64,000 bases of DNA from Jiangella muralis. Its GTDB lineage: Bacteria > Actinomycetota > Actinomycetes > Jiangellales > Jiangellaceae. A program made the position numbers and the translations under genes. The stretch spans positions 124,001 to 188,000 of the forward strand of contig NZ_KQ434756.1 in the NCBI RefSeq assembly GCF_001270745.1, in the 5' to 3' direction. Numbering within the stretch: position 1 is the first letter of the stretch; every line of letters begins with the position of its first letter. The notes under the pieces were generated by a model that was given only the letters and a program-made list of their open reading frames with translations, did not search any database and was not told the origin of the DNA. Below, piece after piece: positions 2,488-33,625 of this stretch.

Positions 2488-3588
2488 ATGGGGACGGTCG
2501 AGGACTGGGTGAGCGCACCGGCACGGATCGCCGATCCCGGCGAGGGCGTCTCGGTCGACGAGCTGCGGCTCGCCGCCCGCAACCACGGCCTGCCGCTGGA
2601 GGCGTTGCGCTACGACGTCACCCCGGCCGGCCTGCACTATCTGCTGACGCACTACGACATCCCGGCCGTGGACCCGGCCGCCTGGCGGCTGACGGTGTCC
2701 GGCGCACTCACCCGGCCGCTCTCGCTGAGTCTGGACGACCTGCGCGCACGGCCGCGGGTGACCCACCGCGTCACGCTGGAGTGCGCCGGCAACGGGCGGG
2801 CCCGGCTGAGCCCGCGGCCGGTCAGCCAGCCGTGGCTGGACGAAGCGGTCGGCACCGCGGAGTGGACGGGCACACCGCTGGCGGCCGTGCTCGCCGAGGC
2901 GGGCGTGGCCGCGTCCGCCGTCGACGTCGCGTTCACCGGCGCCGACAGCGGCCTCGAACGCGGGGTCGAGCAGACGTACCGGCGCGGGCTGCCGCTGGCC
3001 GAGGCGCTGCGCGACGACGTCCTGCTGGCCGACGAGATGAACGGCGCTCCGCTGCCGCCGCAGCACGGCGCGCCCGTGCGCCTGATCGTCCCCGGCTGGT
3101 ACGGCATGGCGCACGTGAAATGGCTGGTCGGCGTCGAGGTGCTGGAGTCGGCGTTCGACGGCTACCAGAACGTCACGTCGTACCGCGTCAAGCAGGCGGC
3201 CGACGACCCCGGCGAGCCGGTGACCCGCATCCTGCCGAAGGCGCTGATCCAGCCGCCCGGCGTGCCCGACTTCCAGAGCCGCGTCCGCGTCGTCGACTCA
3301 GGCGTCGTCGAGCTGACCGGGCGGGCGTGGTCGGGCTGGGCGCCGGTCGAGTCCGTCGAGGTGAGCACCGACGACGGCGGCAACTGGCGGCCGGCCGAGC
3401 TGGGCCCGCAACCCGCGCCGTACGCGTGGCGGTCCTGGCGGTTCGCGTGGACTGCCCACCCCGGACGGCACGAGCTGCGCGCCCGCGCCCGCGACGCCGC
3501 CGGCCACGAGCAGCCCGTCGACCAGGCCTGGAACCGTCAGGGCATGGCCAACAACCACGCGCAGCAGGTCACCGTCGTCGTCCGCTGA
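2488..3588 (+). CDS. Sulfite-oxidase-like molybdopterin-dependent oxidoreductase
   Basis: A 366-residue protein with an oxidoreductase molybdopterin-binding domain (about 40-220) and a C-terminal Mo-co dimerisation domain (about 240-366). The motif VTLECAGNGR carries the Cys that ligates molybdenum in sulfite oxidase-type enzymes, and VPGWYGMAHVKWL is the conserved substrate/cofactor loop. No heme domain and no signal peptide are visible, so it is probably a cytoplasmic sulfite oxidase-family enzyme with unknown acceptor. It diverges from the flavin oxidase gene across a 117-bp spacer. Length is normal for the family. Confidence 0.88.
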   Translation: MGTVEDWVSAPARIADPGEGVSVDELRLAARNHGLPLEALRYDVTPAGLHYLLTHYDIPAVDPAAWRLTVSGALTRPLSLSLDDLRARPRVTHRVTLECAGNGRARLSPRPVSQPWLDEAVGTAEWTGTPLAAVLAEAGVAASAVDVAFTGADSGLERGVEQTYRRGLPLAEALRDDVLLADEMNGAPLPPQHGAPVRLIVPGWYGMAHVKWLVGVEVLESAFDGYQNVTSYRVKQAADDPGEPVTRILPKALIQPPGVPDFQSRVRVVDSGVVELTGRAWSGWAPVESVEVSTDDGGNWRPAELGPQPAPYAWRSWRFAWTAHPGRHELRARARDAAGHEQPVDQAWNRQGMANNHAQQVTVVVR

Positions 3589-4495: not shown

Positions 4496-5256
4496 GCGCG
4501 CTCGTCCAGACCGAACTGCTCGGCCGCCGGGCCATCCGCGAGTCGCTGCGCACGCCCGAGGCGCTCGCGCCGACGCTGTTCATCCCGGTGTTCTTCCTGG
4601 TCGTCAACTTCGGCCAAGCCGGGCGGATCTTCCCGTCCGACTCCACCCCGTTCCTGTACGGGCAGACGTACGCGGCGTTCCAGCTGCCCAGTTCGCTGCT
4701 GCTGGCCGCCTCGTTCGGATCGGCCGCGCTGTACCTCGTCGAGGACATCGAGGGCGGCTACTTCGACAAGCTGCGGGCGGCGCCGGTGTCGCGTGCCGCG
4801 CTGGTGCTCGGCCGGCTGATCGCCGAGGGCGCGAAGACCGCCCTGCTCACGGTCGCGCTGGTCGTCATCGCACTGCCGTTCGGCGTGACGATCGCCAGCG
4901 GGCCGGCCGGCTTGGTGCTGCTGGTCGTGCTGACGTCGCTGTGGGGCATGGTGTTCGCCGGATTCATGCAGCTCATCGCGTTGAAGACGCGTAGTGCGGC
5001 GGCCACGAACTCGGGCGGGCTGGTGTTCTTCCCGCTGCTGTTCCTGACCCCGAACTTCGTGCCGCGCGAGCTGCTGACCCGGCCGATGGAGATCGCGGCG
5101 ACGTTCAACCCCGTCACGTACGTCATGGAGGCGTTGCGGTCGTTGATCCTGCAGGACCTGCAGTGGGACGTGCTGGCGCGCGGGTTCGGGGTGGTGGCGG
5201 CGTTCGGCGCGCTGATGGTGTATCTCAACCTCCGGCTGGTGCGCCGGTACGACTGA
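4492..5256 (+). CDS. ABC-2 type transporter permease, DrrB family
   Basis: A 254-residue membrane protein with about six hydrophobic segments (for example FIPVFFLVVNF and GLVLLVVLTSLWGMVFAGFM) and the ABC-2 signature FNPVTYVMEALRSLIL near the C-terminus. It starts inside the stop of the ATPase gene (ATGA at 4492-4495), so the two are translationally coupled. It forms the membrane part of the exporter with the upstream ATPase. Start and length match DrrB-type proteins. Confidence 0.92.
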   Translation: MSALVQTELLGRRAIRESLRTPEALAPTLFIPVFFLVVNFGQAGRIFPSDSTPFLYGQTYAAFQLPSSLLLAASFGSAALYLVEDIEGGYFDKLRAAPVSRAALVLGRLIAEGAKTALLTVALVVIALPFGVTIASGPAGLVLLVVLTSLWGMVFAGFMQLIALKTRSAAATNSGGLVFFPLLFLTPNFVPRELLTRPMEIAATFNPVTYVMEALRSLILQDLQWDVLARGFGVVAAFGALMVYLNLRLVRRYD

Positions 5257-5266
5257 GCCGACCTAT

Positions 5267-5297
5267 TGACAACATGTTCCCAAAATGACAACATGTT
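5267..5297. promoter_or_regulatory. Tandem TGACAACATGTT boxes, probable MarR operator
   Basis: The 12-mer TGACAACATGTT occurs at 5267-5278 and again at 5286-5297, a 19-bp period. Each contains the palindrome AACATGTT. The first overlaps a consensus -35 hexamer TTGACA (5266-5271). The pair lies directly in front of the DJ-1/MarR gene pair, so autoregulation by the MarR protein is the simplest reading (inference). Confidence 0.6.
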
Positions 5298-5301
5298 GCC
5301 T

Positions 5302-5913
5302 ATGACACCGACAGCGCACATCGCCCTGTACGACACGCTCGCCGACTCCGAGATCGGGCACCTGCTCGTGGAGCTGCGCACCGGCCGGTTCACCGGCACG
5401 CCGTGGAACGTCGTCACCGTCGCTGAGACGGCCGACCCGATCACCACCATGGGCGGGATGCGTATCGTCCCGGACCTGCTGCTCGCCGACCTCTCGCCCG
5501 AGGAGAGCGACCTGCTGGTACTGGCCGGCGCGGAGATGTGGGACACCAGCGGCGGCCAGGCGTGGACGGACGCCGCCCGGCGATTCCTCGACGCGCGGGT
5601 GCCGGTCGCCGCCATCTGCGGCGCGACGGCCGGTCTCGCGCGGGCGGGGCTGCTGGACGACCGCGACCACACCAGCGCGGCACTGGACTACGTGACCATG
5701 CAGCCCGGCTACGGCGGCCGCGACCACTACATCGACGCGCGCGCTGTCGTCGGTGGCGACGTCGTCACCGCCGGGCCGGACTCGCCGGTGCAGTTCGCCC
5801 GGGCCACGCTGAGCCGGCTGGGCCTCGCGTCGGAGGAGACGCTGCAGGCGTACGAGGGCGTGTTCCACGCCGCCGACCCGAGCGCGTACCCGGTGCTCAT
5901 GCAGGCACAATGA
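5302..5913 (+). CDS. DJ-1/PfpI family protein (class I glutaminase-like)
   Basis: A 203-residue DJ-1/PfpI-fold protein. The nucleophile elbow AAICGATAGLARAGLLDD carries Cys106, preceded by the acid-containing strand LLVLAGAEMW. The family includes YdeA-like proteins, proteases/deglycases and chaperones, and the reaction cannot be fixed here. The ATG at 5302 is chosen because both operator-like boxes then lie upstream; ATG 5293 and TTG 5266 are in frame but overlap the boxes. No clear ribosome site is present, so the message may be leaderless. Its stop overlaps the MarR start. Confidence 0.85.
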   Translation: MTPTAHIALYDTLADSEIGHLLVELRTGRFTGTPWNVVTVAETADPITTMGGMRIVPDLLLADLSPEESDLLVLAGAEMWDTSGGQAWTDAARRFLDARVPVAAICGATAGLARAGLLDDRDHTSAALDYVTMQPGYGGRDHYIDARAVVGGDVVTAGPDSPVQFARATLSRLGLASEETLQAYEGVFHAADPSAYPVLMQAQ

Positions 5914-6419
5914 GCCGAATGACGACGACGGAGGTCCCGCCGCGCGCGGAGTGGCCGGAGCCGGGGCCGGCCACTCCGGCCGGCGAGGTGCTCACCGACC
6001 TCGCCCTGACGACGTTCCGGCTCAACGCCCGGCTGATGGAGGCCGCGCAGGACATGGCGGCCGCCGGCGACATCACCGCCGCGTGGTGGCAGGTGCTCGG
6101 CGGCGTCCTCGACCAGCCGCGCACGCACGCCGACATCGGCCGGCTCGTGGGGATGTCGCGGCAGGGTGTGCGCCGGGTGGCCGACCTGCTGGTCGAGCAG
6201 GGGCTGGCGGAGTACCGCGACAACCCCGCGCACCGCCGCGCCAAGCTGCTGGCCTGCACTGAGGCGGGCTACTGGGCGATCCGGCGCATCTCGCTGGTGC
6301 AGCACCCGTGGGCCGAGCACATCGGCTCACAGCTCGACCTCGGCGACCTCACCCGCGCACTGGACACCATGCAAGCGTTGGTCGCCGTTCTCGAGGCCGA
6401 CCGCCCGGCCGGCGGCTGA
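5910..6419 (+). CDS. MarR family transcriptional regulator
   Basis: A 169-residue winged-helix regulator. The recognition region DIGRLVGMSRQGVRRVADLLVEQGLAEYRDNPAHRRAK is cut here to its core SRQGVRRVADLLVEQGL, and the wing follows with ACTEAGYWAIRRI. ATG 5910 overlaps the DJ-1 stop (ATGA); ATG 5919 is an alternative. It probably represses its own operon through the AACATGTT boxes upstream of the DJ-1 gene. The inducer is unknown. Confidence 0.87.
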   Translation: MSRMTTTEVPPRAEWPEPGPATPAGEVLTDLALTTFRLNARLMEAAQDMAAAGDITAAWWQVLGGVLDQPRTHADIGRLVGMSRQGVRRVADLLVEQGLAEYRDNPAHRRAKLLACTEAGYWAIRRISLVQHPWAEHIGSQLDLGDLTRALDTMQALVAVLEADRPAGG

Positions 6420-6424
6420 TGCCG

Positions 6425-6595
6425 TCAGGGCTGGACGCGCAGCACCGCGGCCAGCAGGGCGAGCACGATCGCCGCCGACGCGGCCCACTGGACGTGCAGC
6501 AGCGTCCCGCGCAGGTCGCGCGCGAACGCCGGCGTCAGAACGTCGGCGAACCGCCGCCGATCCGACCGGAACCGCCCCCGTCTCGGCGTCGCCAT
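6425..6595 (-). CDS. Small single-pass membrane protein (56 aa)
   Basis: A 56-residue frame with a strong GGGGAGG ribosome site 8 bases before its ATG. It begins with a very basic segment (MATPRRGRFRSDRRRF), and from about residue 37 holds one hydrophobic helix (AASAAIVLALLAAVL). It is convergent with the MarR gene, 5 bp away. I do not recognise a family. The ribosome site and clean topology argue it is real, with a cytoplasmic basic head and one membrane span. Confidence 0.55.
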   Translation of the reverse strand: MATPRRGRFRSDRRRFADVLTPAFARDLRGTLLHVQWAASAAIVLALLAAVLRVQP

Positions 6596-6690
6596 GTCGC
6601 GACCTCCCCTTCTCCCCCCGCGGGCACTCCCTCGTCGGGTAGGAGACCGCCGGTCGCGGGATCAGCACGCGAGCGGCGATGTGAGCTGCG

Positions 6691-7149
6691 TCACAGCAGG
6701 CGGGTCATGAAGACGCTGAGCGGGTCTGGACCGTAGCCGGCGAACGGCGCACAGTGCTCGAATCCGAACTTCTCGTAGAGCCGCCGGGCCGGCCGGAAGA
6801 ACTCGTCCGACCCGGTCTCGAGGCTGAGCCGCCGGTATCCCATCGCCCGCGCCTCGCCGACGATGTGGCCGAGCAGCAGCGACGCGATGCCGCTGCGCTG
6901 GCGGGCGGGCGCCGTGCGCATCGACTTCAGCTCGGCGTGCCGATCGTCCAGCCGCGTGATCGCCCCGCACCCGACGATGACCCCGGCGTCGTCGCGGACC
7001 ACCCAGAACGTGACCCCCGGCCGGCGCAGGCCGTCGAGGTCGAGGGCGTGCTTGCTCTCCGGCGGCGTGATGGACCGCAATTCCCGGACGTGGTCTTCCA
7101 GGAACGCCGCGATCTCCGCCCCCGCCAGGTCGTCGACGGCGATGCGCAT
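6691..7149 (-). CDS. GNAT family N-acetyltransferase
   Basis: A 152-residue GNAT protein. The acetyl-CoA loop is MRTAPARQRSGIASLLLGHI, with the Q/R-x-x-G-x-A pattern, and the C-terminal strand-helix is RRLYEKFGFEHC. The motif LSLETGSDEFFRPARRLYEK resembles the PhnO/YhhY-like acetyltransferase group. The substrate is unknown. It stands alone, with a strong structured element upstream that separates it from the TetR operon. Confidence 0.88.
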   Translation of the reverse strand: MRIAVDDLAGAEIAAFLEDHVRELRSITPPESKHALDLDGLRRPGVTFWVVRDDAGVIVGCGAITRLDDRHAELKSMRTAPARQRSGIASLLLGHIVGEARAMGYRRLSLETGSDEFFRPARRLYEKFGFEHCAPFAGYGPDPLSVFMTRLL

Positions 7150-7209
7150 GGTGGCGACCGTAGAACGCTCGTGTCATCCGAATGTTTCAGAACAGGACCT
7201 GGCTCTGAC

Positions 7210-7281
7210 GCGCGTCCTGGGTGTCGGGTGCGCGAAACCGCCGAATTCGGCCCGAGAACGCACCTCAGACCCAGGACGCGC
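7210..7281. terminator. Nested inverted repeat / probable transcription terminator
   Basis: Three nested dyads: GCGCGTCCTGGGT (7210-7222) pairs perfectly with 7269-7281, GGTGCG (7227-7232) with CGCACC (7259-7264), and GCCGAATTCGGC (7240-7251) is a central palindrome. It follows the stop of the TetR-SGNH-SRPBCC operon on the minus strand, so termination is the likely role. There is no T-run. Confidence 0.55.
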
Positions 7282-7299
7282 CCCACGCCGACCACGTCG

Positions 7300-7734
7300 T
7301 CACGGGGTGACGGCGCGACGGTGGATGTCGCGGAGGATGCGGGCGACGGCGAGGCGATGCGCGCCCGACGTGACGACGAGCAGGCGGTAGATGCGGCCGT
7401 GCGGGCCGGGGAACGCGGCTTCGGTGCGCGCGCTCACCGTCGTCCCGCCCGGGGCCGCGGCCAGCGTGAACGTCAGCGCATAGCGGGAGAACCGGTGCCG
7501 CCCGGCCAGCCGCACCAGCCGCTCCGGCTCCACCGCGGCCACCGCGAACCCCGGCACCGTCGCGCCCGGCTCTAGCGGCGCCCCGGACGGCCGCCGCGGC
7601 GAGGTCCCGAGGAGCCACGCGAGCACGCCCGCCCCGCGCATGCCGCCCATGTGTGCGCCGAGCGCCACCCAGACGTCGGACGGCGAGGCGGGGACCAGCA
7701 ACTGGCGCTCGTCGACGAACGGGAGGACGGTCAT
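7300..7734 (-). CDS. SRPBCC superfamily protein (polyketide cyclase/START-like)
   Basis: A 144-residue protein. It starts at MTVLPFVDERQLLVPASPSDVW, with a first strand and helix like SRPBCC ligand-binding folds, and ends in a long C-terminal helix (SGAHRLAVARILRDIHRRA). Helix-grip proteins of this kind bind lipids or polyketides. The start overlaps the stop of the SGNH hydrolase gene (ATGA). The frame is longer upstream, but that part is shadow of the hydrolase gene. The partner lipase and shared regulator suggest lipid metabolism, which is inference. Confidence 0.72.
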   Translation of the reverse strand: MTVLPFVDERQLLVPASPSDVWVALGAHMGGMRGAGVLAWLLGTSPRRPSGAPLEPGATVPGFAVAAVEPERLVRLAGRHRFSRYALTFTLAAAPGGTTVSARTEAAFPGPHGRIYRLLVVTSGAHRLAVARILRDIHRRAVTP

Positions 7735-8426
7735 CGCGGCGGGATGGCGGCGACGACGGCGGAGGCCCAGAGGCGGTAGCCGGTCGCGGACGGGTGGAAG
7801 CGGTCGGCGCTGAAGAAGTCCATCGGGGGCAGCCCGTCCGAGACGACCGTCGTCCAGGCCACCTGCGGCCGCGCCGCGCACACGTCCCGCGCCACCGCGT
7901 CGAAGGCGGCCGCCCGCTCGCCGAGGTAGCGCCGCAGCGTCCGCGGCAACCCCGGGAACAGCCCGAACGGCGGCACCCCCGCGACCACCACCCGGGCCGA
8001 CCGCGCGGCGAGGCCGTCGACGATCGCGGCGAGGTCGGCACCCCAGTCGGCCGGGGGCCGCCGGGTGAGCACGTCGTTCGCGCCGGCCAGCAGCACGGCG
8101 ACGTCGTACGAGCCGGTCAGGCGGGGCAGCAGCCGGTGCCGGACCCGCCGCGCGGTCGCGCCGAACTGCGCCGCCACCTCCCAGTCGACGGGCCGCCCGG
8201 TCGACGCGGCGAGCAGCCCCGCCAGCGCACCGGCGAACCCGTCGTCGTGCGAGTCGACGCCGGACCCGGCCGCGGTCGACTCGCCGAGCACCGCCACCCG
8301 CAGCGGCGCGCCGTCGCCGCCGCCGATCGTGCCGGCCACGCGGTCGTCGACCGGCTCGGCCAGCGTGAACGTCGAGCGCACCCAGAGCCCCTGCATCGCG
8401 ACGAGGGGCAACAGCAGCCGGTTCAC
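7731..8426 (-). CDS. SGNH/GDSL family hydrolase
   Basis: A 231-residue hydrolase. Block I is VAVLGESTAAGSGVDSH (Ser nucleophile in GEST), block III is LLAGANDV and block V is DRFHPSATGY with the Asp/His pair. These define SGNH esterases/lipases. The chosen start is a GTG overlapping the TetR stop (GTGA at 8423-8426). The first residues (VNRLLLPLVAMQGLWV) form a hydrophobic anchor or uncleaved signal. It is the middle gene of a TetR-hydrolase-SRPBCC operon. Confidence 0.9.
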   Translation of the reverse strand: MNRLLLPLVAMQGLWVRSTFTLAEPVDDRVAGTIGGGDGAPLRVAVLGESTAAGSGVDSHDDGFAGALAGLLAASTGRPVDWEVAAQFGATARRVRHRLLPRLTGSYDVAVLLAGANDVLTRRPPADWGADLAAIVDGLAARSARVVVAGVPPFGLFPGLPRTLRRYLGERAAAFDAVARDVCAARPQVAWTTVVSDGLPPMDFFSADRFHPSATGYRLWASAVVAAIPPR

Positions 8427-8980
8427 GAGGCCGCCCCGGGAAGCAGGGTGCCGACGGCGGCCCGGGTGCCGTCGCCGAGATCGACGCCGATGGCCTGCAG
8501 CAGCACCACCAGCGCACCGTCGGCCAGGAACCGGGCGAGGTCGTCGGCGCCGGCGCCGGTCAGCGCGGCCGACTCGCCGAGGAGGACGGTGATGACGCCG
8601 CGGCAGCGCGCCGCCACCACCTCGTCGCGCCGGGCGATCGCGGATGCCTGCAGCCACAGCCCGCCGGTGACGCCGCCGGAGAGCAGCTCGCGAAAGCCCG
8701 CACCCATCGCCGTCATCGGGTCGCCGGGCCGGTCGGCCGCGGCCGCGCGGAACGCCGTCCGCACCCGCGCCTCCACCTCGTCGACGCAGGCCAGCAGCAG
8801 TCCCTGCTTGCTGCCGAAGAGGCGGAAGACGTACGGCTGCGACACCCCGATCTCGTCCGCGACGCGTTGCAGCGCGGCCGTGGTCAGGCCGTCGTCGGCG
8901 ATCACCCGCATCGCGGCGGCGACGGCGTCGGCTCGCCGCTGGGACGCGGTACTACGCGCTTCTGCCATGCCTCGCAGCAT
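8423..8980 (-). CDS. TetR/AcrR family transcriptional regulator
   Basis: A 185-residue TetR protein. The N-terminal HTH reads LQRVADEIGVSQPYVFRLFGSKQGLL and is recognised by VSQPYVFRLFGSK; the C-terminal ligand domain is unassigned. The start may be ATG 8980 or ATG 8968 (MAEARS); neither has a good ribosome site. A perfect 16-bp palindrome lies 6 bp upstream and also precedes the divergent MOSC gene. The protein therefore probably represses its own operon and perhaps the MOSC gene. Confidence 0.9.
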   Translation of the reverse strand: MLRGMAEARSTASQRRADAVAAAMRVIADDGLTTAALQRVADEIGVSQPYVFRLFGSKQGLLLACVDEVEARVRTAFRAAAADRPGDPMTAMGAGFRELLSGGVTGGLWLQASAIARRDEVVAARCRGVITVLLGESAALTGAGADDLARFLADGALVVLLQAIGVDLGDGTRAAVGTLLPGAAS

Positions 8981-8985
8981 GACAG

Positions 8986-9001
8986 AAGTAAGTACTTACT
9001 T
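8986..9001. promoter_or_regulatory. Perfect 16-bp palindrome AAGTAAGTACTTACTT, probable TetR operator
   Basis: The sequence equals its own reverse complement over 16 bp. It is AT-rich in a GC-rich genome and sits in the 64-bp spacer between the TetR gene (minus) and the MOSC gene (plus). This is the position and symmetry expected of the regulator's operator. Confidence 0.7.
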
Positions 9002-9044
9002 ACAAGATCTGACCTAGACTTCTCGGCGATCCCTGGGAGGACGG

Positions 9045-9590
9045 ATGAATGGCGACGGCCGTCCGGTCGAGATCGTGGGGCTGCTGGTCTCGCCGGTGCA
9101 CGCGTACGAGGGCCGGCCACAGGACGGGCCGCGACACGATCCGGCGCCGGCCACCCGGCCGGACGTCACGGTGCGCGCTGGGCTCGGACTGGTCGGCGAC
9201 CGCTACTTCGGCCGACCGGCGCACCGCAACGCCGCGGTCACATTGATCGACGCGGCCGCGCTGGACGAACTCGCCGCGTCGCTCGGGCTGAACCATCCGC
9301 TCGATCCGCTGCTGACCAGGCGAAACATCGTGCTTCGCGGCTTCCGTGTCGACGACCTCACGGCGCGACGGCCGGAACCGGGCGCGGTGTTCACGCTCGA
9401 CTCCGGCGCGGGACCGATCCGGTTCCAGGCTCACCGGGCGGCGAACCCATGCGCCTGGATGGACGTCGCGCTGGCGCCGGGTGCGTTCCGCGGGCTCCGC
9501 GGCCGCGGCGGCGTCCGCTGCACACCCCTCGACGACGGCGCGCTTCAGCTAGGGCCGGCAACCCTCACCGTCCAACCGGCACCCCGCTGA
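9045..9590 (+). CDS. MOSC domain-containing protein
   Basis: A 181-residue protein with MOSC-type features: an opening strand VEIVGLLVSPVHAYEG, the segment GLGLVGDRYFG and the core RRNIVLRGFRVDDL (RRNI/V pattern), and NPCAWMDVALAPGAFRGLRGRGG where MOSC proteins carry their conserved Cys. The family includes sulfur-carrier and molybdenum-cofactor-related enzymes (YiiM, mARC C-terminal domain). GGGAGG precedes the ATG. It is divergent from the TetR gene. The role is unknown. Confidence 0.83.
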   Translation: MNGDGRPVEIVGLLVSPVHAYEGRPQDGPRHDPAPATRPDVTVRAGLGLVGDRYFGRPAHRNAAVTLIDAAALDELAASLGLNHPLDPLLTRRNIVLRGFRVDDLTARRPEPGAVFTLDSGAGPIRFQAHRAANPCAWMDVALAPGAFRGLRGRGGVRCTPLDDGALQLGPATLTVQPAPR

Positions 9591-9601
9591 GCCTAGCCGC
9601 G

Positions 9602-9874
9602 TCAGCCCAGGCCGAGCCGCTGCCAGGTCTGCTTGCCGGGGATGCCGTCGGCGTCGGTTCCCTTCCAGCCCTGGTCCTCCTGGAACGCCTTGACGGCGGC
9701 CTGGTCGGTGGCCGACCAGGTGCGACTGGGGCCCTCCTTGTAGAGGTCGCGGTATTTCTTGCTCCGCAGCACCAATGCCGAGCCGACCAGGAGCACATAG
9801 TCGTTGACCTTGCCCGCCCCGAACACCTCGGGACCGGGATACGGAACCACCTCGACCACAACAGCTTCGGACAT
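9602..9874 (-). CDS. Small peptidoglycan-binding-like domain protein
   Basis: A 90-residue protein starting at MSEAVVVEVVPYPG, with GGAGGGG before the ATG. The C-terminal half (SATDQAAVKAFQEDQGWKGT then DADGIPGKQTWQRLGLG) matches the PG_binding_1 repeat: AVKAFQ, G-D-G-x-x-G-x-x-T-W. No signal peptide is seen, so it may act in the cytoplasm or as an accessory module. It is convergent with the MOSC gene, 11 bp away. Confidence 0.75.
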   Translation of the reverse strand: MSEAVVVEVVPYPGPEVFGAGKVNDYVLLVGSALVLRSKKYRDLYKEGPSRTWSATDQAAVKAFQEDQGWKGTDADGIPGKQTWQRLGLG

Positions 9875-22483: not shown

Positions 22484-24629
22484 GGGAGGGGGTCCTCTCG
22501 GCCGGGGGCACGACGATGTCGGTGAAGGCGTGGATGGCCCGCCGGCTGCTGGCGGCGAGCCGGTCGAGCGGGACGGCGGGCGCTTCGACGCCGCTGTCGA
22601 CGAACCGGCGGTGCAGGTCGTCCAGGTCGCGGTCGAGCTGCGCCGCGGCGCGGGGCCGGTCGGTGCCGGCGAGGTCGGCGGCCGCCGCCCAGGCCACGAG
22701 CCGCCTGCTGTGGTGACCGCCCACCAGCCCGCGCCACAGGCGTGCGGAGTAGTCCTCCAGCGTGGTCCCCGGCGCCTCGTTCCAGCTGGTGACCAGCCGC
22801 CGCGCGGACCGGACCAGCTCGACCGGGTCGACGCCGTCAGCCGCAGCTCGAGCGGCGGCGGCCTCCCAGGCGTCGAGCCGGGACTCCGCGCGAGTCGCGA
22901 ACAGCTCGTCGAACCCGTCGAGTTCCGCGGTCAGCCGCTCGACGAGGGCAGGCCGCCGGGCCGGGTCGGGCTGTTCGGCGATGCGCAGGACGAGTTCGTC
23001 GGCGACCCGCGAGCAGGCGGCCTGCGCGAGTTCCACCAGGTCGAGACCGAGCGGACCGGAAGCGAGCGCGGGATCGTCGTCGAGCACGTCGACCAGCAGC
23101 CGCCACGACCGGGCGAACAGGTCCGGGTCGAACCAGCGCTGGGACTCGACGTCGCGACGCAGGGCGGCGGGCTCGTCGACCCAGGCGAGGGTCGGACGCC
23201 GCACGAGCACACCGTGGAAGTCCTCCGGGAAGATCGGCCGGCCACGTGCGTCGTAGATGGTGGCGAGCAGCCCGGACCAGGCGTCCTCCAGCCGGTCGTC
23301 GCGGCGGCCGTAGCGGTCGGCGGCGAAGCGGCGGACCCAGGCGTCGAGGTCAGGCGTATCGCCCCAGGCGAGGTCGGCGAGGAGCTCGAAGAACACGCCG
23401 TTGTGGTGGATCGACTCCATCGTCAAGCCGAGGCCGGCGGGTGGACGGGGCGAGGCGAGCGCGGCCTCGAACTGGTCCCGGGCCCGGGGCAGGTCGGCGA
23501 CCGCGTCGCTGCGCCCGCCGAAGTTGAGCAGCCCGCACCACTGCCAGGTCCGGCCGGAGAAGCCGTCCTGCCGCGGCCAGACCGGCGAGTGCTCGGCCCA
23601 GAGGTCGAGGACGAGCAGGGCGTCATGGGGCACGGCATCGAGGAAGGCCCGCACCCGCTCACGGGTCCAGTAGTCCGCCTGGTACGCGAACGGCCAGGCC
23701 TGCAGGACCCAGACGGCGTCCGGCTCGGCGGCGCGGAAGCCGCGCACCAACTGCCCCGCTACGCGGGTGGGGAAGTCGTCGTCCTCGTCGGCCGGCGGGG
23801 TCTCGATGAACGGGTCGGACGCGATGTGGGTGACGGCGCCGAACCGCTCCTGCTGGACCCGCACCACCTCGGCGGCGAGCCGGGCGAACCGTGGGTCGTC
23901 GGGGTCGAGGAACCAGGTGGTGTTGTCCTGCCACTGACGCGGCCGCGTCGCGTCCGGAGCGAGACTGTGCGGCACGTGCCCGGTGAAGCCGGGGAACACC
24001 GGCGTCATGCCCAGCGAGCGCATCCGCTCGATGATCCGCCGCCCGAGCCGAGCGCGCCGCTCGAGGTCGTCGGCGGTGAGCTGGACCCGGTGGCCGTCGC
24101 GGCAGCCCATGTACTGGAACGGCAGGTAGAGCGGTTCGCCGAGGAAGCTCAGGATGGTCTCGTCGTCGCAGCCGAAGCGGCGGTAGACGTCGGCCAGCAC
24201 GGCCTCGTGGCCGGCCAGCGCCAGCGGCATGGTGACGCCGTGCAGCGCCATCCAGTCGATCTCGCGCTCCCAGTCCGGCCACGACCAGTGCGCCGTGGAG
24301 TAGCTGAACGTGCAGAAGTTCAGCATGTACTGGTCGCGGACACGGGCGCGGACGGTGCGCTCGGGTGCCTCGGCGACCGGCGTGACGGCCAGGGGCGTCC
24401 GGGTGGGCCAGTGGACGGCGGTCCCGTGCTGCTGGCGCAGGTGATCGTGCAGGCCGGCGCACGCGCTGACCGGGTCGCTCGCCGTCAGCTCCAGGCGGCC
24501 GTCGCGCACGCAGTGCCGGAACCCGCGGCCGAGGCCGGGATCCCAGTGGATCGCCAGCCGGCCGGCGAACCCGGCGCCCGCGACCCGCTCGGCGAGCTCG
24601 CGGACGGCGGCTTCGTGGGCACCGTTCAT
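22482..24629 (-). CDS. GH89 alpha-N-acetylglucosaminidase (NAGLU family), no stop codon at its natural end
   Basis: About 715 residues aligned in mind with human NAGLU: an N-terminal small domain, then a TIM barrel. Glu276 (in DPFIET) and Glu405 (in TMESIHHN) match the acid/base and nucleophile of GH89, and WQWCGLLNFGGR is the family loop. There is no signal peptide, so it is cytoplasmic, unlike secreted clostridial GH89. ATG 24629 has GGAGG five bases upstream. The frame does not stop at murQ: it stays open to 20652. One extra C in the run near 22487 would create a TGA overlapping the murQ ATG. Confidence 0.88.
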
Positions 24630-29253: not shown

Positions 29254-30588
29254 CTAGACCGTGCGGACTGACGAGCACTGGCAGGCGACGAGGAGGCATT
29301 CCGCGGCCTCGGCATCGTCTCGCAGCAGAGTCTCGCCGACGCCGACGCCGACGCCGACCCCGGCCCCTTCCGTGGCAGGCTGGGTGGCCGGCGCCGCGTG
29401 CCCGCGGGGCCACACCACCACGGCCGTCACCATGCCGATAACGGCGAGTGCGCCGAGGATCGCCCATGCGAGGGTGAAGCCGGAACTGGTGCCGATCCAC
29501 CCGGCGATCGGATAGGTGACCAGCCACGCCAGGTGTGAGAGGGAGAACTGGGCGGCGAAGGCCCCGGGAAGCTGGCTGCCGTCGACGGAGGATCGGATCA
29601 CGCGTCCGGTCGGGGTGACGATCAGGGCCATGCCGCCTCCGATGAGCCCCCAGATGGGCGCGGTGACGCCCCATGCGGCGACCCCGGTGGCGGCCATCGC
29701 GACCGCCGCGCCCACCCCCGTGAGCAGCACCCCGGCGCCGGTCATCATGACGGTGCGGTCGGCGACGCGGTCGAGCACGCGCGGCAGGAGAAGCGCGACC
29801 ACGAGCGTGCCACCACCAGAGGCGGCGAGCATCCAGGAGACGTCGGCCTGCGTGCCGCCGAGTTCGTCGCGGACGTAGTTGACGGTATTGACCACCACGA
29901 TCGACCCGGCGGCGGCAACCACCAGGTTCAGCGCCATGACGCCCCGCAGCCGCGGTGTCGTGGCGAAGGTCGTGATGCCCGAGGTGACGCGATCCCAGAG
30001 GCGCGTGCGGCCGCTGGGCCTCGCGTTCGGGATGCGGGTGGAGAGCACCAACAACGCGGAGACGACGAACCCGATCGACGTGCCGACGAACAGCCAGTCG
30101 AAGGTCATGAAGGTGAGCGCCACCGCTGCGAGCACCGGGCTGAGCAGGCTCTCCATCGTGTAGGCGACCTGTGAGGCCGACAGGGCGCGGGTGAAGTCGG
30201 ATTCCTCGGTCACGATGTCGGGGATGACCGCCTGGAACGTGGGCGTGAACGCCGCTGAGGTGGCTTGCAGGACGCCGATGAGGACGTAGATGTGCCACAC
30301 CTCGGTGACGAACGGGAGTGCGAGCACGACGCCGGCGCGGATGACGTCGAGCAACGTCAGGAACGCCCGTCGCGGCAGACGGTCGGCGTAGGCGCCGACC
30401 ACGGGCGCCACCAGCACGTACATGACCATCTTGATCGTCAGCGCGGTGCCGAGGACCGCCCCGGCGCTGGAACCTGCCAGGTCGTAGGCGAGCAGCCCGA
30501 GCGCGACAGTGGCCAGCCCGGTGCCGAACAGCGCGATCACCTGGGCGCTGAACAGGTGCCGGTAGTCGCGGATGGCGAAGAGGCGCAT
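29254..30588 (-). CDS. MFS transporter, enterobactin-exporter (EntS)-like fold
   Basis: A 444-residue major-facilitator protein with about twelve helices. The family loop after TM2 is APVVGAYADRLPRRAFL (DRxxRR), and the opening FAIRDYRHLFSAQVIALFGTGL is typical of the MFS_3 group. The C-terminus has a GVGVGVGVG run from a GACGCC microsatellite, then a Cys-containing tail. GGGGGAG precedes ATG 30588. A CsoR-like operator 45 bp upstream suggests control by copper or reactive sulfur, so export of a metal-linked compound is possible (inference). Confidence 0.88.
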   Translation of the reverse strand: MRLFAIRDYRHLFSAQVIALFGTGLATVALGLLAYDLAGSSAGAVLGTALTIKMVMYVLVAPVVGAYADRLPRRAFLTLLDVIRAGVVLALPFVTEVWHIYVLIGVLQATSAAFTPTFQAVIPDIVTEESDFTRALSASQVAYTMESLLSPVLAAVALTFMTFDWLFVGTSIGFVVSALLVLSTRIPNARPSGRTRLWDRVTSGITTFATTPRLRGVMALNLVVAAAGSIVVVNTVNYVRDELGGTQADVSWMLAASGGGTLVVALLLPRVLDRVADRTVMMTGAGVLLTGVGAAVAMAATGVAAWGVTAPIWGLIGGGMALIVTPTGRVIRSSVDGSQLPGAFAAQFSLSHLAWLVTYPIAGWIGTSSGFTLAWAILGALAVIGMVTAVVVWPRGHAAPATQPATEGAGVGVGVGVGETLLRDDAEAAECLLVACQCSSVRTV

Positions 30589-30632
30589 GAGGGTCTCCCC
30601 CTGGTCTCGGGTGTCTCCACCACCACAGAAAC

Positions 30633-30651
30633 CATACCCCCAGGGGGTATG
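30633..30651. promoter_or_regulatory. CsoR/CstR-like operator CATACCCCCAGGGGGTATG
   Basis: A perfect dyad with 9-base arms around one A. The TACCCC...GGGGTA layout is that of CsoR-family (Cu(I) or persulfide-sensing) operators. It is 45 bp before the MFS start on the minus strand. No csoR gene is in the window. Confidence 0.65.
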
Positions 30652-30779
30652 TCAAATCGTGAGCCTCGACGACGGAGGGACGCGTGCGAGTCGGCGGTGC
30701 CGGACGGGCGAGTCGGGCGTTCCTCGGAGGTGAGGCCTGCGACGAGGTGGGATGCGCTGGTGAGCAGGCTACGGCGGTG

Positions 30780-30816
30780 GTGGGCCCCCAGGGGATCGAA
30801 CCCTGAACCCGCGGAT
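30780..30816. repeat. Left attachment-like repeat: copy of tRNA-Lys 3' half
   Basis: 37 bases identical to 31976-32012, which run from the anticodon loop to one base past the tRNA-Lys 3' end. It has no tRNA 5' half. It is the expected product of site-specific integration into a tRNA gene. Confidence 0.85.
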
Positions 30817-30882
30817 CAGCGAGCGAGCCCTCTCGTCATCTCGCCTCTACTTGCTCTCGCCGCTCTGGCCAGCAGTGTTCGC

Positions 30883-30888
30883 TATCAT
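30883..30888 (+). promoter_or_regulatory. -10 element TATCAT of the toxin-antitoxin pair (leaderless)
   Basis: TATCAT ends 6 bases before the antitoxin ATG at 30895, so transcription would start at or near the start codon. No ribosome site is present. A -35 is not clear. Confidence 0.45.
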
Positions 30889-30894
30889 GGTCCT

Positions 30895-31059
30895 ATGAGT
30901 GTTCCGGCGTTCAGCGATCCAGCCGTCGAGGTGGCTGCGTCGCCCGTTGACGCCGAGCGGGAGAACGACGAGTGGTGGGCGTGGTGGTCCACGCTGCCCA
31001 CCGTCGAGCGTTCCCGTTCGGTGGTTGACGTTCTCGCCGACACCCGCGACGACGACTGA
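30895..31059 (+). CDS. Putative antitoxin of a VapBC-like module
   Basis: A 54-residue acidic protein starting MSVPAFSDPAVEVAASPVDA and ending in the Asp-rich tail DVLADTRDDD. The middle (NDEWWAWWSTLPTVERSRSV) is Trp-rich. No DNA-binding fold is recognisable. Its position, size and one-base ATG overlap with the PIN toxin gene make it the partner antitoxin. It is probably translated from a leaderless message. Confidence 0.7.
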   Translation: MSVPAFSDPAVEVAASPVDAERENDEWWAWWSTLPTVERSRSVVDVLADTRDDD

Positions 31060-31463
31060 TGGCCCGTCGCTACGTGCTCGATGCCTCGGCCGGCATCGCG
31101 ATCCTCAACCACACGTCGTCGGGCGTTGCTCTCGCCGCGTTCCGGTTTCGGCCCGGTGCCGAGACCTGGACCGTCGAGCACTTCCACGTCGAGGTTGCCA
31201 AGGTGATCCGTCGCGATGTGCTCCGTGGGGATCTGACCGACACCCAGGCCGGCCAGCTCGTCACTGGACTCGTCCGCTGGCCACTCAACGTCGCACGGGT
31301 CGCTCCGCTGATCTCCGACGCTTGGACGATGCGGCACACCATCACCATCCACGATGGCCTGTACGTGGCGCTCGCCCGGCACATCGGCGCAACCCTCGTC
31401 ACCGCTGATCGGAAGCTCGCCAAGGCTCCCGGCATGGACGTACCCGTCATCGCGCCGAGCTGA
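31059..31463 (+). CDS. vapC: PIN domain ribonuclease toxin, VapC family
   Basis: A 134-residue PIN domain with the acidic metal-binding residues in place: Asp8 (VLDASAG), Glu45 (HVEVAKV), Asp99 (IHDGLYVALA) and Asp117 (TADRKL). VapC toxins cleave tRNA or rRNA and are neutralised by the cognate antitoxin. TGATG overlap with the 54-residue antitoxin gene. Codons such as CGT, GAT and GGG are more frequent than in neighbours, consistent with transfer. The target RNA is unknown; whether it is linked to the tRNA-Lys site is untested. Confidence 0.9.
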   Translation: MARRYVLDASAGIAILNHTSSGVALAAFRFRPGAETWTVEHFHVEVAKVIRRDVLRGDLTDTQAGQLVTGLVRWPLNVARVAPLISDAWTMRHTITIHDGLYVALARHIGATLVTADRKLAKAPGMDVPVIAPS

Positions 31464-31654
31464 GCGCTTCGGCAGGTAGGCGGAAGCTCGGCGACAAATT
31501 TCTACGCCGAGGTCACGAAGCGATTTTCGTAGGCACTCGGCCACGAGTGGTGCGGGCAATCAGCGAACACGCTGCAAACGGGTCTGTCGAAGTCGAGCAT
31601 GAGCAAACTGGACGCCAGACAGGAGTTTCGCGAGCTGGTCGTTGGCGGTCGCGG

Positions 31655-31860
31655 TCATTCGGTGTTCTCGCGGCCGACGGTGGTCCAGATGCTGTCGAAC
31701 CAGCGGCGGGGTTGGACGACGTACTGGGAGCCCATGGATGGCCTCCTTACCGCCGAGGTCGAGGATCGCGGTGGGCTCGTCGCCGGGCTGACCTGGTGCT
31801 CGTAGACGGGGTAGGGCCGAAGAACACCTGGGCGTCGTTGATGATGTAGAGCTTGAACAT
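31655..31860 (-). pseudogene. Frameshifted remnant of an unidentified gene
   Basis: Three coding-like segments in different frames read in order on the minus strand: MFKLYIINDAQVFFG, then PYPVYEHQVSP, then GDEPTAILDLGGKEAIHG, and finally MGSQYVVQPRRWFDSIWTTV ending in a stop. At least two single-base indels would be needed to join them. The WFDSIW end recalls regulators with a small C-terminal domain, but I cannot name the family. The rest of 31464-31976 shows nothing else I can call. Confidence 0.5.
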
Positions 31861-31975
31861 CGACAGCCGCGGACCTGCTCGATGACGCTCTACAGACGAC
31901 GGTGGTGGAAAACCATGGGTAAAGCATGGCCTCTGCTGCTGGTCGCGCTGGGTCTAGTCGCTGACCTGCTGTTTA

Positions 31976-32012
31976 GTGGGCCCCCAGGGGATCGAACCCT
32001 GAACCCGCGGAT
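31976..32012. repeat. Right attachment-like repeat inside tRNA-Lys
   Basis: The second perfect copy of the 37-bp repeat. The intact tRNA is at this end, so this copy joins the tRNA 5' half to the identity segment. Confidence 0.85.
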
Positions 32013-32049
32013 TAAAAGTCCGCTGCTCTGCCAATTGAGCTAGAGGCCC
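31977..32049 (-). tRNA. tRNA-Lys(UUU)
   Basis: 73 bases fold as a cloverleaf: acceptor GGGCCTC/GGGGCCC, anticodon arm GCGGA-CTTTTAA-TCCGC with anticodon TTT (complement of 32014-32016), T arm CAGGG-TTCGATC-CCCTG and discriminator A. CCA is not encoded. Its 3' half (31976-32012) is duplicated at 30780-30816, marking it as an integration target. Confidence 0.95.
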
Positions 32050-32257
32050 CGCGGACAGGCTACCCAGTCCCGTCGCCACCGGCCGAACCGGCAGCGGCGC
32101 CGAGGCCGGCCGACTATCCGGGGGCGCTGACAGAACGCTGACGGTTCCTGGCCGAAAACGTGCGGACTCTGTCAGTGGGCGGGGGTTGAATGGGTCTTCC
32201 ATGCCGGACGGGCACACCTTCCGATCCGGCGTGGTCACCTCGAAGGAGAACCGCCTC

Positions 32258-33625
32258 ATGACCACCCTCGACGTCTCCGCACTTCGCACCCGCTTCACCG
32301 GCCAGGTCGTCGCTCCCGGCGACGACGGCTACGACGGCGCGCGTGCGCTCTTCTACGGCGGCCACGACCCCCGGCCCGTCGTCGTCATCCGCCCAGCCGA
32401 TGCCGGCGAGGTGGCCGCCGTCATCACGCTCGCCCGCGAGACCGGCCTCGAACTCTCCGTCCGCTGCGGCGGGCACAGCCCCGTCGGCCACAGCGTCGTC
32501 GACGGCGGCATCGTCCTCGACCTCACCCACCTGCGCGCCATCGCCATCGACGTCGAGGAGCGCACGGTGTGGGCGCAGGCCGGCCTCACGGCGGGCGACG
32601 TCACCCGGGCGGTCGCCGAGCACGGGCTGGCCGTCGGCTTCGGCGACACCGGCACCGTCGGCATCGGTGGCATCACCACCGGCGGCGGGGTCGGCTTCCT
32701 GTCCCGCAAGCACGGCATGACCATCGACAACGTGCTCGCCGCCGAGGTCGTCACCGCCGACGGCCAGATCCTGCAGGTCGACGGCGCCAACCACCCCGAC
32801 CTCTTCTGGGCCATCCGGGGCGGCGGCGGCAACTTCGGCGTCGTCACCCGGTTCAAGTACCGGCTGCAGGAGGTGCCCGGCGTCGTGGGCGGCATGATCC
32901 TGCTCCCGGCCACGCCCGAGGTCATCCACGGTTTCCTCCGCGAGGCGGCCGCGGCGCCCGAAGAGCTGTCCGTCATCGTCAACGTCATGCCGGCGCCGCC
33001 GATGCCGTTCATCCCGGCCGACCAGCACGGAAACATGGTGGTCATGGGCCTGGTCTGCTACGCGGGCCCGGCCGAGGAGGGCGAGAAGGCGCTGGCGCCC
33101 ATCCGGGCGCTGGCCGAGCCCATCGCCGACCTTGTCCGGCCCATCACCTACGCCGAGATGTTCATGGAAGAGGGCGACGACGAGTACCACCCCACCGCCA
33201 CCGCCCGCACCATGTTCGCCGACGAGCTCGACCTCGGCCGCGTCACCCAAGTCCTCGAGCGGCTGCGCACGGCGCCGGCGCCCATGCGGGTCGCGCAGTT
33301 CCGGCCGCTCGGCGGCGCCATCGACCGCGTCCCCGCCGACGCCACGGCGTACGCGCACCGCGGCCGGGCGTTCATGGTCAACGTCGCCTCGTTCCTCGAC
33401 GGCCCCGACACCAAGGCCGAGCGGGAGCAGTGGGTCCTCGACACCGCCGCCGTCGCCGAGAACGGCGGCACCGGCGCCTACGTCAACTTCCTCACCGAAG
33501 ACGGCGAGACGCGGGCGCGGGAGGCCTACCCGGGCGGCACCTGGGAGCGGCTCACTCAGGTGAAGCGGCAGTACGACCCCGCCAACCTGTTCCGCCGCAA
33601 CGTCAACATCCCGCCCGCGGGCTGA
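32258..33625 (+). CDS. FAD-binding oxidoreductase with BBE domain (paralogue)
   Basis: A 455-residue covalent flavoprotein of the VAO/PCMH superfamily, clearly related to the protein at 1000-2370: the same FGG-type loops, RCGGHSPVGHS with His73 as likely FAD linkage, GGGGNFGVVTRF, and ending YDPANLFRRNVNIPP. GGVGFLSRKHG replaces the GIGYLARGFG of the other copy. AAGGAGAA precedes ATG 32258; the frame opens earlier at 32186 without homology. The substrate is unknown. It is monocistronic, after the tRNA-Lys. Confidence 0.9.
   Translation: MTTLDVSALRTRFTGQVVAPGDDGYDGARALFYGGHDPRPVVVIRPADAGEVAAVITLARETGLELSVRCGGHSPVGHSVVDGGIVLDLTHLRAIAIDVEERTVWAQAGLTAGDVTRAVAEHGLAVGFGDTGTVGIGGITTGGGVGFLSRKHGMTIDNVLAAEVVTADGQILQVDGANHPDLFWAIRGGGGNFGVVTRFKYRLQEVPGVVGGMILLPATPEVIHGFLREAAAAPEELSVIVNVMPAPPMPFIPADQHGNMVVMGLVCYAGPAEEGEKALAPIRALAEPIADLVRPITYAEMFMEEGDDEYHPTATARTMFADELDLGRVTQVLERLRTAPAPMRVAQFRPLGGAIDRVPADATAYAHRGRAFMVNVASFLDGPDTKAEREQWVLDTAAVAENGGTGAYVNFLTEDGETRAREAYPGGTWERLTQVKRQYDPANLFRRNVNIPPAG

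Follow-up and report, generated by a model that had tools for sequence, protein, structure and literature searches.

A 1.2-kb segment at a Jiangella tRNA-Lys gene is very probably the relic of a collapsed pSAM2-type AICE with a VapBC-like pair

INTRODUCTION

Actinomycete integrative and conjugative elements (AICEs) of Streptomyces are prone to decay, giving decayed AICEs (DAICEs) and remains. Their reduction to cargo and a partial integrase between repeats is already published, and later accretion and cis-mobilization have been suggested for them (PMC9513070). AICEs occupy tRNA-Lys in Frankia, in one case as two in tandem, and remnants of AICEs have been reported as well (PMC3218068). Classical cis-mobilizable elements (CIMEs) measure 1.2–13 kb, and 215 CIMEs lie at tRNA-Lys(CTT) in 303 S. 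agalactiae genomes, as cited in PMC7563491; a CIME has also been reported in Streptomyces (PMC8369830). In Shewanella, the toxin-antitoxin pair HipAB contributes to maintenance of a composite tRNA-Trp island (PMC8978831). Here we analyze a 64-kb stretch of Jiangella muralis DNA (NZ_KQ434756.1, positions 124,001–188,000; "the window"), in which a 1.2-kb segment between two 37-bp repeats at a tRNA-Lys(UUU) gene carries a VapBC-like toxin-antitoxin pair. The window is part of a 7.27-Mb draft genome (G000:C7). Genomes, contigs and loci are designated by G, C and L numbers.

RESULTS

The Segment Lies between a tRNA-Lys Gene and a Copy of Its 3′ Half

We are confident that the 1.2-kb segment is the relic of a collapsed AICE of the pSAM2 type. 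Its features, in window coordinates, are as follows.

30780–30816, no strand: distal 37-bp core, an attachment-site half consisting of the tRNA-Lys 3′ half without a 5′ half (exact repeat; same place in the G001 and G003 elements)
30817–30873, no strand: 57-bp AICE left end (likeness to the G001 and G003 left ends)
30883–30888, plus strand: −10-like TATCAT of the presumed leaderless antitoxin transcript (TANNNT in 11 of 11 related loci)
30895–31059, plus strand: antitoxin-like open reading frame (ORF) of 54 amino acids (no family match; ORF conserved in 11 loci)
31059–31463, plus strand: VapC-like PIN ribonuclease toxin of 134 amino acids (PF01850, active-site acids, structural model)
31497–31688, minus strand: frameshifted remnant of an AICE HAD-hydrolase gene, N-terminal part (tblastn E 8e-12; nucleotide alignments)
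31661–31860, minus strand: frameshifted remnant of an AICE GntR-family regulator gene, C-terminal part (tblastn E 3e-16)
~31860–31922, plus strand: 3′ end of an AICE tyrosine-integrase gene, ~20 codons with the stop (aligns with the integrase ends of G001, G003 and a second G002 locus)
31923–31975, no strand: 53-bp noncoding AICE right end (aligned with G001, G003 and the second G002 locus)
31976–32012, no strand: proximal 37-bp core, inside the tRNA gene (exact repeat; ARAGORN)
31976–32049, minus strand: intact tRNA-Lys(UUU) gene, the integration target (ARAGORN; same gene in 11 of 11 other Jiangella genomes searched)

The two cores match perfectly for exactly 37 bp, and the similarity breaks off sharply on either side. 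All 14 24-mers that recur in the window belong to this pair, whose chance expectation is ~3e-11 at 70% GC. ARAGORN calls the tRNA-Lys(TTT) as intact, and the core begins at the last base of the anticodon loop and extends to the tRNA 3′ end, which agrees with the initial annotation, where the perfect repeat had been read as the 3′ half of tRNA-Lys. Direct-repeat attachment (att) sites are therefore present, one of them inside the 3′ end of a tRNA gene. When the draft genome was searched with 1.6 kb around this gene, the tRNA part matched only tRNA-Lys(CTT) and tRNA-Asn besides the window, so the gene in the window is the only tRNA-Lys(UUU) seen in the genome. Two further matches concerned other parts of the query, one being a second vapBC copy and the other 33 bases of the GntR remnant. 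ARAGORN also made calls at 3018–3105 (tRNA-Gly, 88 nt) and 22645–22735 (undefined tRNA, four-base anticodon), both of which look spurious.

Because the repeat is tRNA sequence, it could in principle stem from duplication and decay of a tRNA-Lys gene, the genes in between being unrelated chromosomal ones. We give this explanation almost no credence. No 5′ tRNA half was found at the distal core, which continues instead into an AICE end shared with G001 and G003, and scraps of AICE integrase, GntR and HAD genes lie between the copies. The AICE left end adjoining the distal core rules out a second decayed tRNA-Lys gene.

Both Ends of an AICE and Scraps of Three of Its Genes Remain

The G001 and G003 elements have left ends ~88% identical to the distal core and 57-bp left end taken together, with homology that stops at 30873–30875. 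On the tRNA side, homology to integrase tails begins at ~31853–31862 and is followed by the 53-bp right end and the proximal core. The segment had been annotated as having no integrase; there is indeed no full or functional one, but an AICE tyrosine-integrase gene has left its final ~20 codons. Similarly, the "frameshifted remnant" of that annotation is real, but it lies on the minus strand and comes from two genes, being the N-terminal part of HAD and the C-terminal part of GntR. At the nucleotide level, the GntR remnant is 76–78% identical to four AICE copies and 69% identical to another. The HAD protein match extends to 31431, where it is probably overextended. In tblastn searches with G003 proteins, neither Rep nor an FtsK/TraB-like transfer gene had a match in the window. 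The relic thus keeps both att sites without recombination or transfer genes, which by definition makes it CIME-like. With its integrase tail, it is a collapsed AICE and not an integrase-free design.

The pieces stand in the order of a composite AICE, as in derivation from an ICE-type (integrative and conjugative) element by deletion. The succession left end, cargo, HAD (minus), integrase (plus) and tRNA is that of G001 (L034), and the remnants also fit the order HAD (minus), GntR (minus), x132, x175, tra and rep of the AICEs L066–L069. The junctions between pieces share only a few bases, consistent with illegitimate deletion.

The Same tRNA-Lys Site Is Occupied in Several Ways within the Genus

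All 11 other Jiangella genomes searched have the same tRNA-Lys(TTT) gene with a perfect core. When up to five mismatches were allowed in the fetched stretch, two core copies were found in G000, G001 and G003, three in G010 (with 0, 1 and 2 mismatches) and one in the other eight genomes. In G003 (J. anatolica), the cores are 13.8 kb apart and enclose an apparently intact pSAM2-type AICE. It contains x183 and x97 (unnamed left-end genes), cargo, an XRE regulator, a GntR regulator, x132, x175, an FtsK/SpoIIIE-type transfer protein, a RepSA initiator (E 1e-144) and a tyrosine integrase (PF00589) that ends 53 bp from the core. The 9.2 kb between the cores of G001 hold x183, x97, cargo and HAD, with the integrase in two frames; Rep and Tra gave no match in this element. 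These two genomes supply the larger integrase-bearing islands between the same repeats that the initial annotation had predicted (13.8 kb, and 9.2 kb with a split integrase). One-repeat sites, also predicted, occur in 4 of the 12 genomes (G004, G005, G007 and G011), which have one core, neither AICE end and ordinary-looking genes beside the tRNA; no AICE protein had a match there within the fetched 19.9 kb. Together with the AICE ends and scraps in the window, these relatives bear out the proposal that the segment is the shrunken relic of an integrated element.

The remaining genomes show further arrangements. G002 has the AICE right end and an integrase in pieces, with no second core in ~33 kb. 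G006 has two partial cores, and G008 has a cassette common to G006 and G010 with just a 19-base core piece. In G009, an ORF of 618 amino acids (L042 5142–6998; G009:C284) with PF00589 and GntR PF00392 domains starts 45 bp from tRNA-Lys(TTT), and beyond it lie a GntR gene, then one for an HTH_17 protein, and distant x183/x97 homologues. The ORF next to the tRNA is an integrase-regulator fusion. Judged by these predicted proteins, the occupant in G009 is a different, integrase-bearing element; no second core was found at its tRNA-Lys. The sequence abutting the tRNA in G009 sits 4.36 kb away in G006, just past a 25-bp partial core, indicating that elements stack at tRNA-Lys.

Tandem cassettes without a recognized integrase were observed at tRNA-Lys(TTT) in G010 (L043, G010:C1:7219500-7239400, at 4600–9700) and G006 (L039, G006:C17, at 4700–9300). 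One cassette has RibD_C and DUF6597/AraC genes, and the other an XRE-IrrE (M78) protein and a PIN-like protein, with matches to PADLOC RmrA and to the candidate defense family PDC-S70. G010 also keeps the AICE right end, past its third core. Cores of the tRNA-Lys 3′ half were also seen where the fetched stretch has no tRNA gene, namely at ~8845 in L045 (G002:C1:6378795-6378879), 9575 in L046 (G009:C249) and 10001 in L047 (G005:C68). One of these orphan cores has an integrase C terminus attached, and L046 and L047 have ~100 bp in common from the core onward, related to the G010 cassettes. The orphan cores are possibly secondary integration sites or rearranged elements.

AICEs at Other Sites Carry the Genes Matched by the Scraps

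Rep/Tra gene sets lie between tRNA-Phe repeats in G005 (L066), G009 (L067) and G006 (L069); G002 (L068) has a similar set, for which no tRNA gene was found. Oriented alike, L066–L069 read HAD (minus), GntR (minus), x132 (plus), x175 (plus), tra (plus) and rep (plus), and none of the four yielded a close relative of the G003 integrase. Between tRNA-Ala repeats, G001 (L070) has HAD (minus) and GntR (minus) with more distant tra, rep and integrase genes. The HAD and GntR scraps of the window match these tRNA-Phe and tRNA-Ala AICEs, and the HAD scrap also matches G001. The own genome contains an AICE-like gene set at tRNA-Asn (L087 8214–15739; G000:C4), whose integrase and RepSA are 64–65% identical to those of the G003 tRNA-Lys element.

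From this comparison, the simplest history is a single AICE insertion with three or more internal losses after it. As in other members of the AICE family, recombination by a tyrosine integrase between the tRNA-Lys(UUU) gene and an attP site containing a tRNA-Lys 3′ half would have rebuilt a complete tRNA and placed an additional 3′ half at the distal end of the element. One loss joined the left end to the toxin-antitoxin promoter, another removed most of the HAD gene and a third joined the GntR gene to the last ~20 integrase codons. Replication and transfer genes disappeared, while both attachment-site halves and the vapBC-like cargo stayed. The tRNA-proximal end would survive because the cell would need the one tRNA-Lys(UUU) gene found in its genome, so that deletions into that gene would be lethal. 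The pair may survive because its loss is costly, through post-segregational toxicity, or because it serves the host. The relic has no gene for its own movement, and might be mobilized again only by integration of an AICE with this specificity next to it.

We also considered that the segment is a functional minimal satellite or CIME, selected as such and moved by an integrase that a visiting tRNA-Lys AICE supplies. In its favor, the segment retains its two cores and its two element ends (57 and 53 bp), further cassettes that are bounded by cores and have no recognized integrase occur at the same tRNA in G010 and G006, and CIMEs of 1.2–13 kb and accretion-mobilization are described in PMC7563491. 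Against this, no tRNA-Lys-type integrase was found in the own genome, where the best intact relative is 64% identical and lies at tRNA-Asn; the reduced form occurs in 1 of 12 Jiangella genomes; and the frameshifted scraps that it still carries are relic-like. We regard such a satellite as quite improbable. The suggestion in the initial annotation of a minimal satellite designed for movement in trans is unsupported because an integrase gene was once present.

The Relic Carries a VapC-like Toxin and a Small, Apparently Leaderless Antitoxin

The antitoxin start lies 6 nt after TATCAT, so the gene looks leaderless, as initially annotated; the end of the TANNNT motif precedes the antitoxin start by 6 bases in 10 of the 11 related loci and by 7 bases in the other. 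The toxin ORF overlaps the antitoxin stop by one base. Its product matches the Pfam PIN family PF01850 with 26.3 bits (cut-off 23.6). In an alignment of 59 proteins (the window protein plus 58 of the 120 listed among 203 matches), D8, D99 and D117 are invariant and E45 is nearly so, and the earlier call of a PIN toxin with four acidic residues therefore holds. The toxin model has a mean predicted local distance difference test score (pLDDT) of 94.1 and matches PAE0151 (2fe1), PAE2754 and many VapC structures. Among the matches listed, near relatives with NCBI names are called VapC. The 54-residue antitoxin had no Pfam or NCBIfam match and only a weak PHROGs match (E 0.22), and a protein search with it returned itself and one relative of 69 amino acids. 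A small antitoxin ORF is co-inherited beside the toxin sequence in all 11 loci. PADLOC had no match for toxin or antitoxin, and a scan of genome contigs with the toxin as query gave no relative.

A phage origin finds no support. None of the four ORFs given had a PHROGs match below E 0.05, and the toxin was unmatched in 50,697 phage records at E 1e-5. Among plasmids, 22 records match; of the 20 listed, 19 match the tRNA end only and one a 121-bp stretch of the GntR remnant.

Relatives of the Pair Ride on AICEs at Other Sites

Toxin relatives with at least 68% identity occur in 10 of 22 Jiangellaceae genomes (7 of 12 Jiangella), and these 10 genomes contain 11 loci with an antitoxin ORF beside the toxin sequence; additional toxin fragments of G004 and G007 that lacked an antitoxin match are left out of this count. 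The toxin is in one frame in nine of the loci and frameshifted, with the antitoxin ORF intact, in two: the copy on the own contig C34 (L048 9075–9639; G000:C34) and that of G019 (L080 1242–1790; G019:C36). In 5 of the 11 loci, att-type repeats enclose the pair along with a tra homologue and a PF00589 integrase. The sites of these carrier AICEs are as follows.

G004: tRNA-Gly(CCC)
G005 and G008: tRNA-Gly(TCC)
G011: acyl-CoA dehydrogenase gene
G020: tRNA-Ser

With 359 amino acids, the integrase ORF of G020 is the shortest; it follows the profile up to position 141 of 172 and is possibly incomplete. No Pfam match was obtained for the tra homologue of G011. Three further loci (the window, G009 and G019) are relics between repeats without a full integrase. 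The G009 relic (L089 14577–17434; G009:C384) is 2.8 kb long, lies at an acyl-CoA dehydrogenase gene and consists of a partial x183, vapBC with an intact toxin, an integrase 3′ end and the repeats; its 14.2-kb counterpart, which occupies this site in G011, has a full integrase (L085 1126–15394; G011:C113). The G019 relic spans 7.3 kb, with a tRNA-Asp-like 58-bp repeat and the frameshifted toxin. The remaining three loci are C34, G007 (beside tRNA-Phe) and G017. Homology of the pair to six other loci begins at 30874–30875, directly after the left end, and in C34 at 30895. Judged from gene content and position, the VapBC pair is AICE cargo. The initial annotation had raised a link between VapC and the tRNA-Lys site. 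We see no special link of this kind, because relatives of the pair ride on AICEs at other tRNA genes and at a protein gene.

The Pair Is Free of Frameshifts while Adjoining Remnants Have Decayed

Indels were counted in alignments with a strict gap penalty. Compared with five AICE copies, the HAD/GntR remnant has 4–7 frameshifting indels in 305–365 bp, whereas the AICE copies compared with each other have none in 7 of 10 comparisons and a compensating +1/−1 pair in 3 of 10. The vapBC pair has no indel over 556–563 bp in five of five comparisons with intact homologues, and one frameshifting indel relative to the broken C34 copy. At the decay rate of the remnant, 7–11 frameshifts would be expected in the pair, and the Poisson chance of none is 1e-5 to 6e-4, a contrast that assumes equal residence time of pair and remnant and a neutral remnant. 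Since the pair is free of indels while the adjoining remnants carry 4–7 frameshifts, it is probably kept by selection and functional in this genome. The contrast does not single out post-segregational addiction, which would be one possible cause of its retention. Pairwise dN/dS (nonsynonymous to synonymous substitution) ratios are 0.18–0.25 for the toxin (eight comparisons) and 0.33–0.49 for the antitoxin (seven comparisons); these values average all lineages and say little on the period after collapse.

DISCUSSION

Several observations count against a collapsed AICE that has kept its own cargo. No empty site with an identical left flank occurs among the genomes examined. The left flank is common to the window and G001 (91–95% identity) and the cargo differs, as do the 116 bp between this flank and the distal core, in place of which G001 has 1.9 kb. 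The insertion may be shared with G001 by descent or be a separate event. The exact parent has not been seen, because the G003 element has no HAD gene and a GntR different from the remnant in the window, and the scraps match AICEs at tRNA-Phe and tRNA-Ala. The toxin is frameshifted beside an intact antitoxin ORF in 2 of the 11 related loci (C34 and the G019 relic), so the pair can be lost and is not always kept. The indel contrast, moreover, presumes that pair and remnants have been together equally long. Finally, the tRNA-Lys elements with recognizable interiors (G001 and G003) are without this vapBC, and the pair may therefore come from cargo exchange or from entry after decay.

The last of these possibilities, in which vapBC entered an already decayed AICE remnant and was not original cargo, draws on that absence and on the abrupt junctions with few shared bases. 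On the other hand, the G004 AICE carries vapBC in the corresponding slot, just inside the left end and after x183–x97; 7 of the 10 other loci have x183 or x97 homologues immediately upstream; and a repeat search of 29500–33500 revealed no insertion-marking repeats around the pair. We consider late entry unlikely, and retain the collapse of a pSAM2-type AICE with its cargo as the best explanation.

Within one genus, a single tRNA gene shows a graded series, with one-repeat sites, an AICE that looks intact, another whose integrase is split and a 1.2-kb relic. A second collapsed AICE elsewhere kept the same toxin-antitoxin family, and together these make addiction versus host benefit testable. 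There is also a warning, as "integrase-less mini-islands" can be relics with an easily overlooked integrase stub. One might go further and propose that an unnamed VapBC family of Jiangellaceae AICEs, with a leaderless antitoxin of 54 amino acids, is repeatedly the last intact gene set in AICE collapse, as at tRNA-Lys in the window and, independently, at an acyl-CoA dehydrogenase gene of G009. We hold this proposal to be tentative and rather doubtful; as a general rule, it is weakened by the frameshifted toxins of G019 and contig C34. If true, the family would fix att-bounded CIMEs in the chromosome, and later AICEs could pick up and spread the pair.

Among the papers listed in the literature searches, none was, judged by title, on Jiangella AICEs or on the present VapBC family. 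The locus can be compared with described systems. The parent type is that of the pSAM2-type AICEs in PMC3218068, with tyrosine integrase, RepSA, FtsK-like Tra and integration at tRNA 3′ ends including tRNA-Lys, whereas the window has lost all functional genes that define an AICE. The decayed AICEs of Streptomyces target a glycosyltransferase gene and not, as here, tRNA-Lys(UUU), and the section on decay in PMC9513070 mentions no toxin-antitoxin pair in their remains, unlike the window, which has one. Like the CIMEs described in PMC7563491, the relic is ICE-derived by deletion, keeps its att sites, has no recombination or transfer genes and, at 1.2 kb, is of similar size. It differs from them in its origin from an actinomycete AICE (FtsK-type transfer) and in having no mobilizing element beside it. 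The pair resembles type II VapBC systems in its PIN fold, four active-site acids and small upstream ORF overlapping the toxin start, and differs in that its 54-residue antitoxin candidate has no recognized domain or family. Like the HipAB island of Shewanella (PMC8978831), the locus combines a toxin-antitoxin pair with an island at a tRNA gene; the Shewanella island measures 48 kb and can excise, whereas the window has only a relic. A collapsed AICE with cargo is thus of a known kind, and what is mildly new is that one unnamed VapBC family survives in more than one of them.
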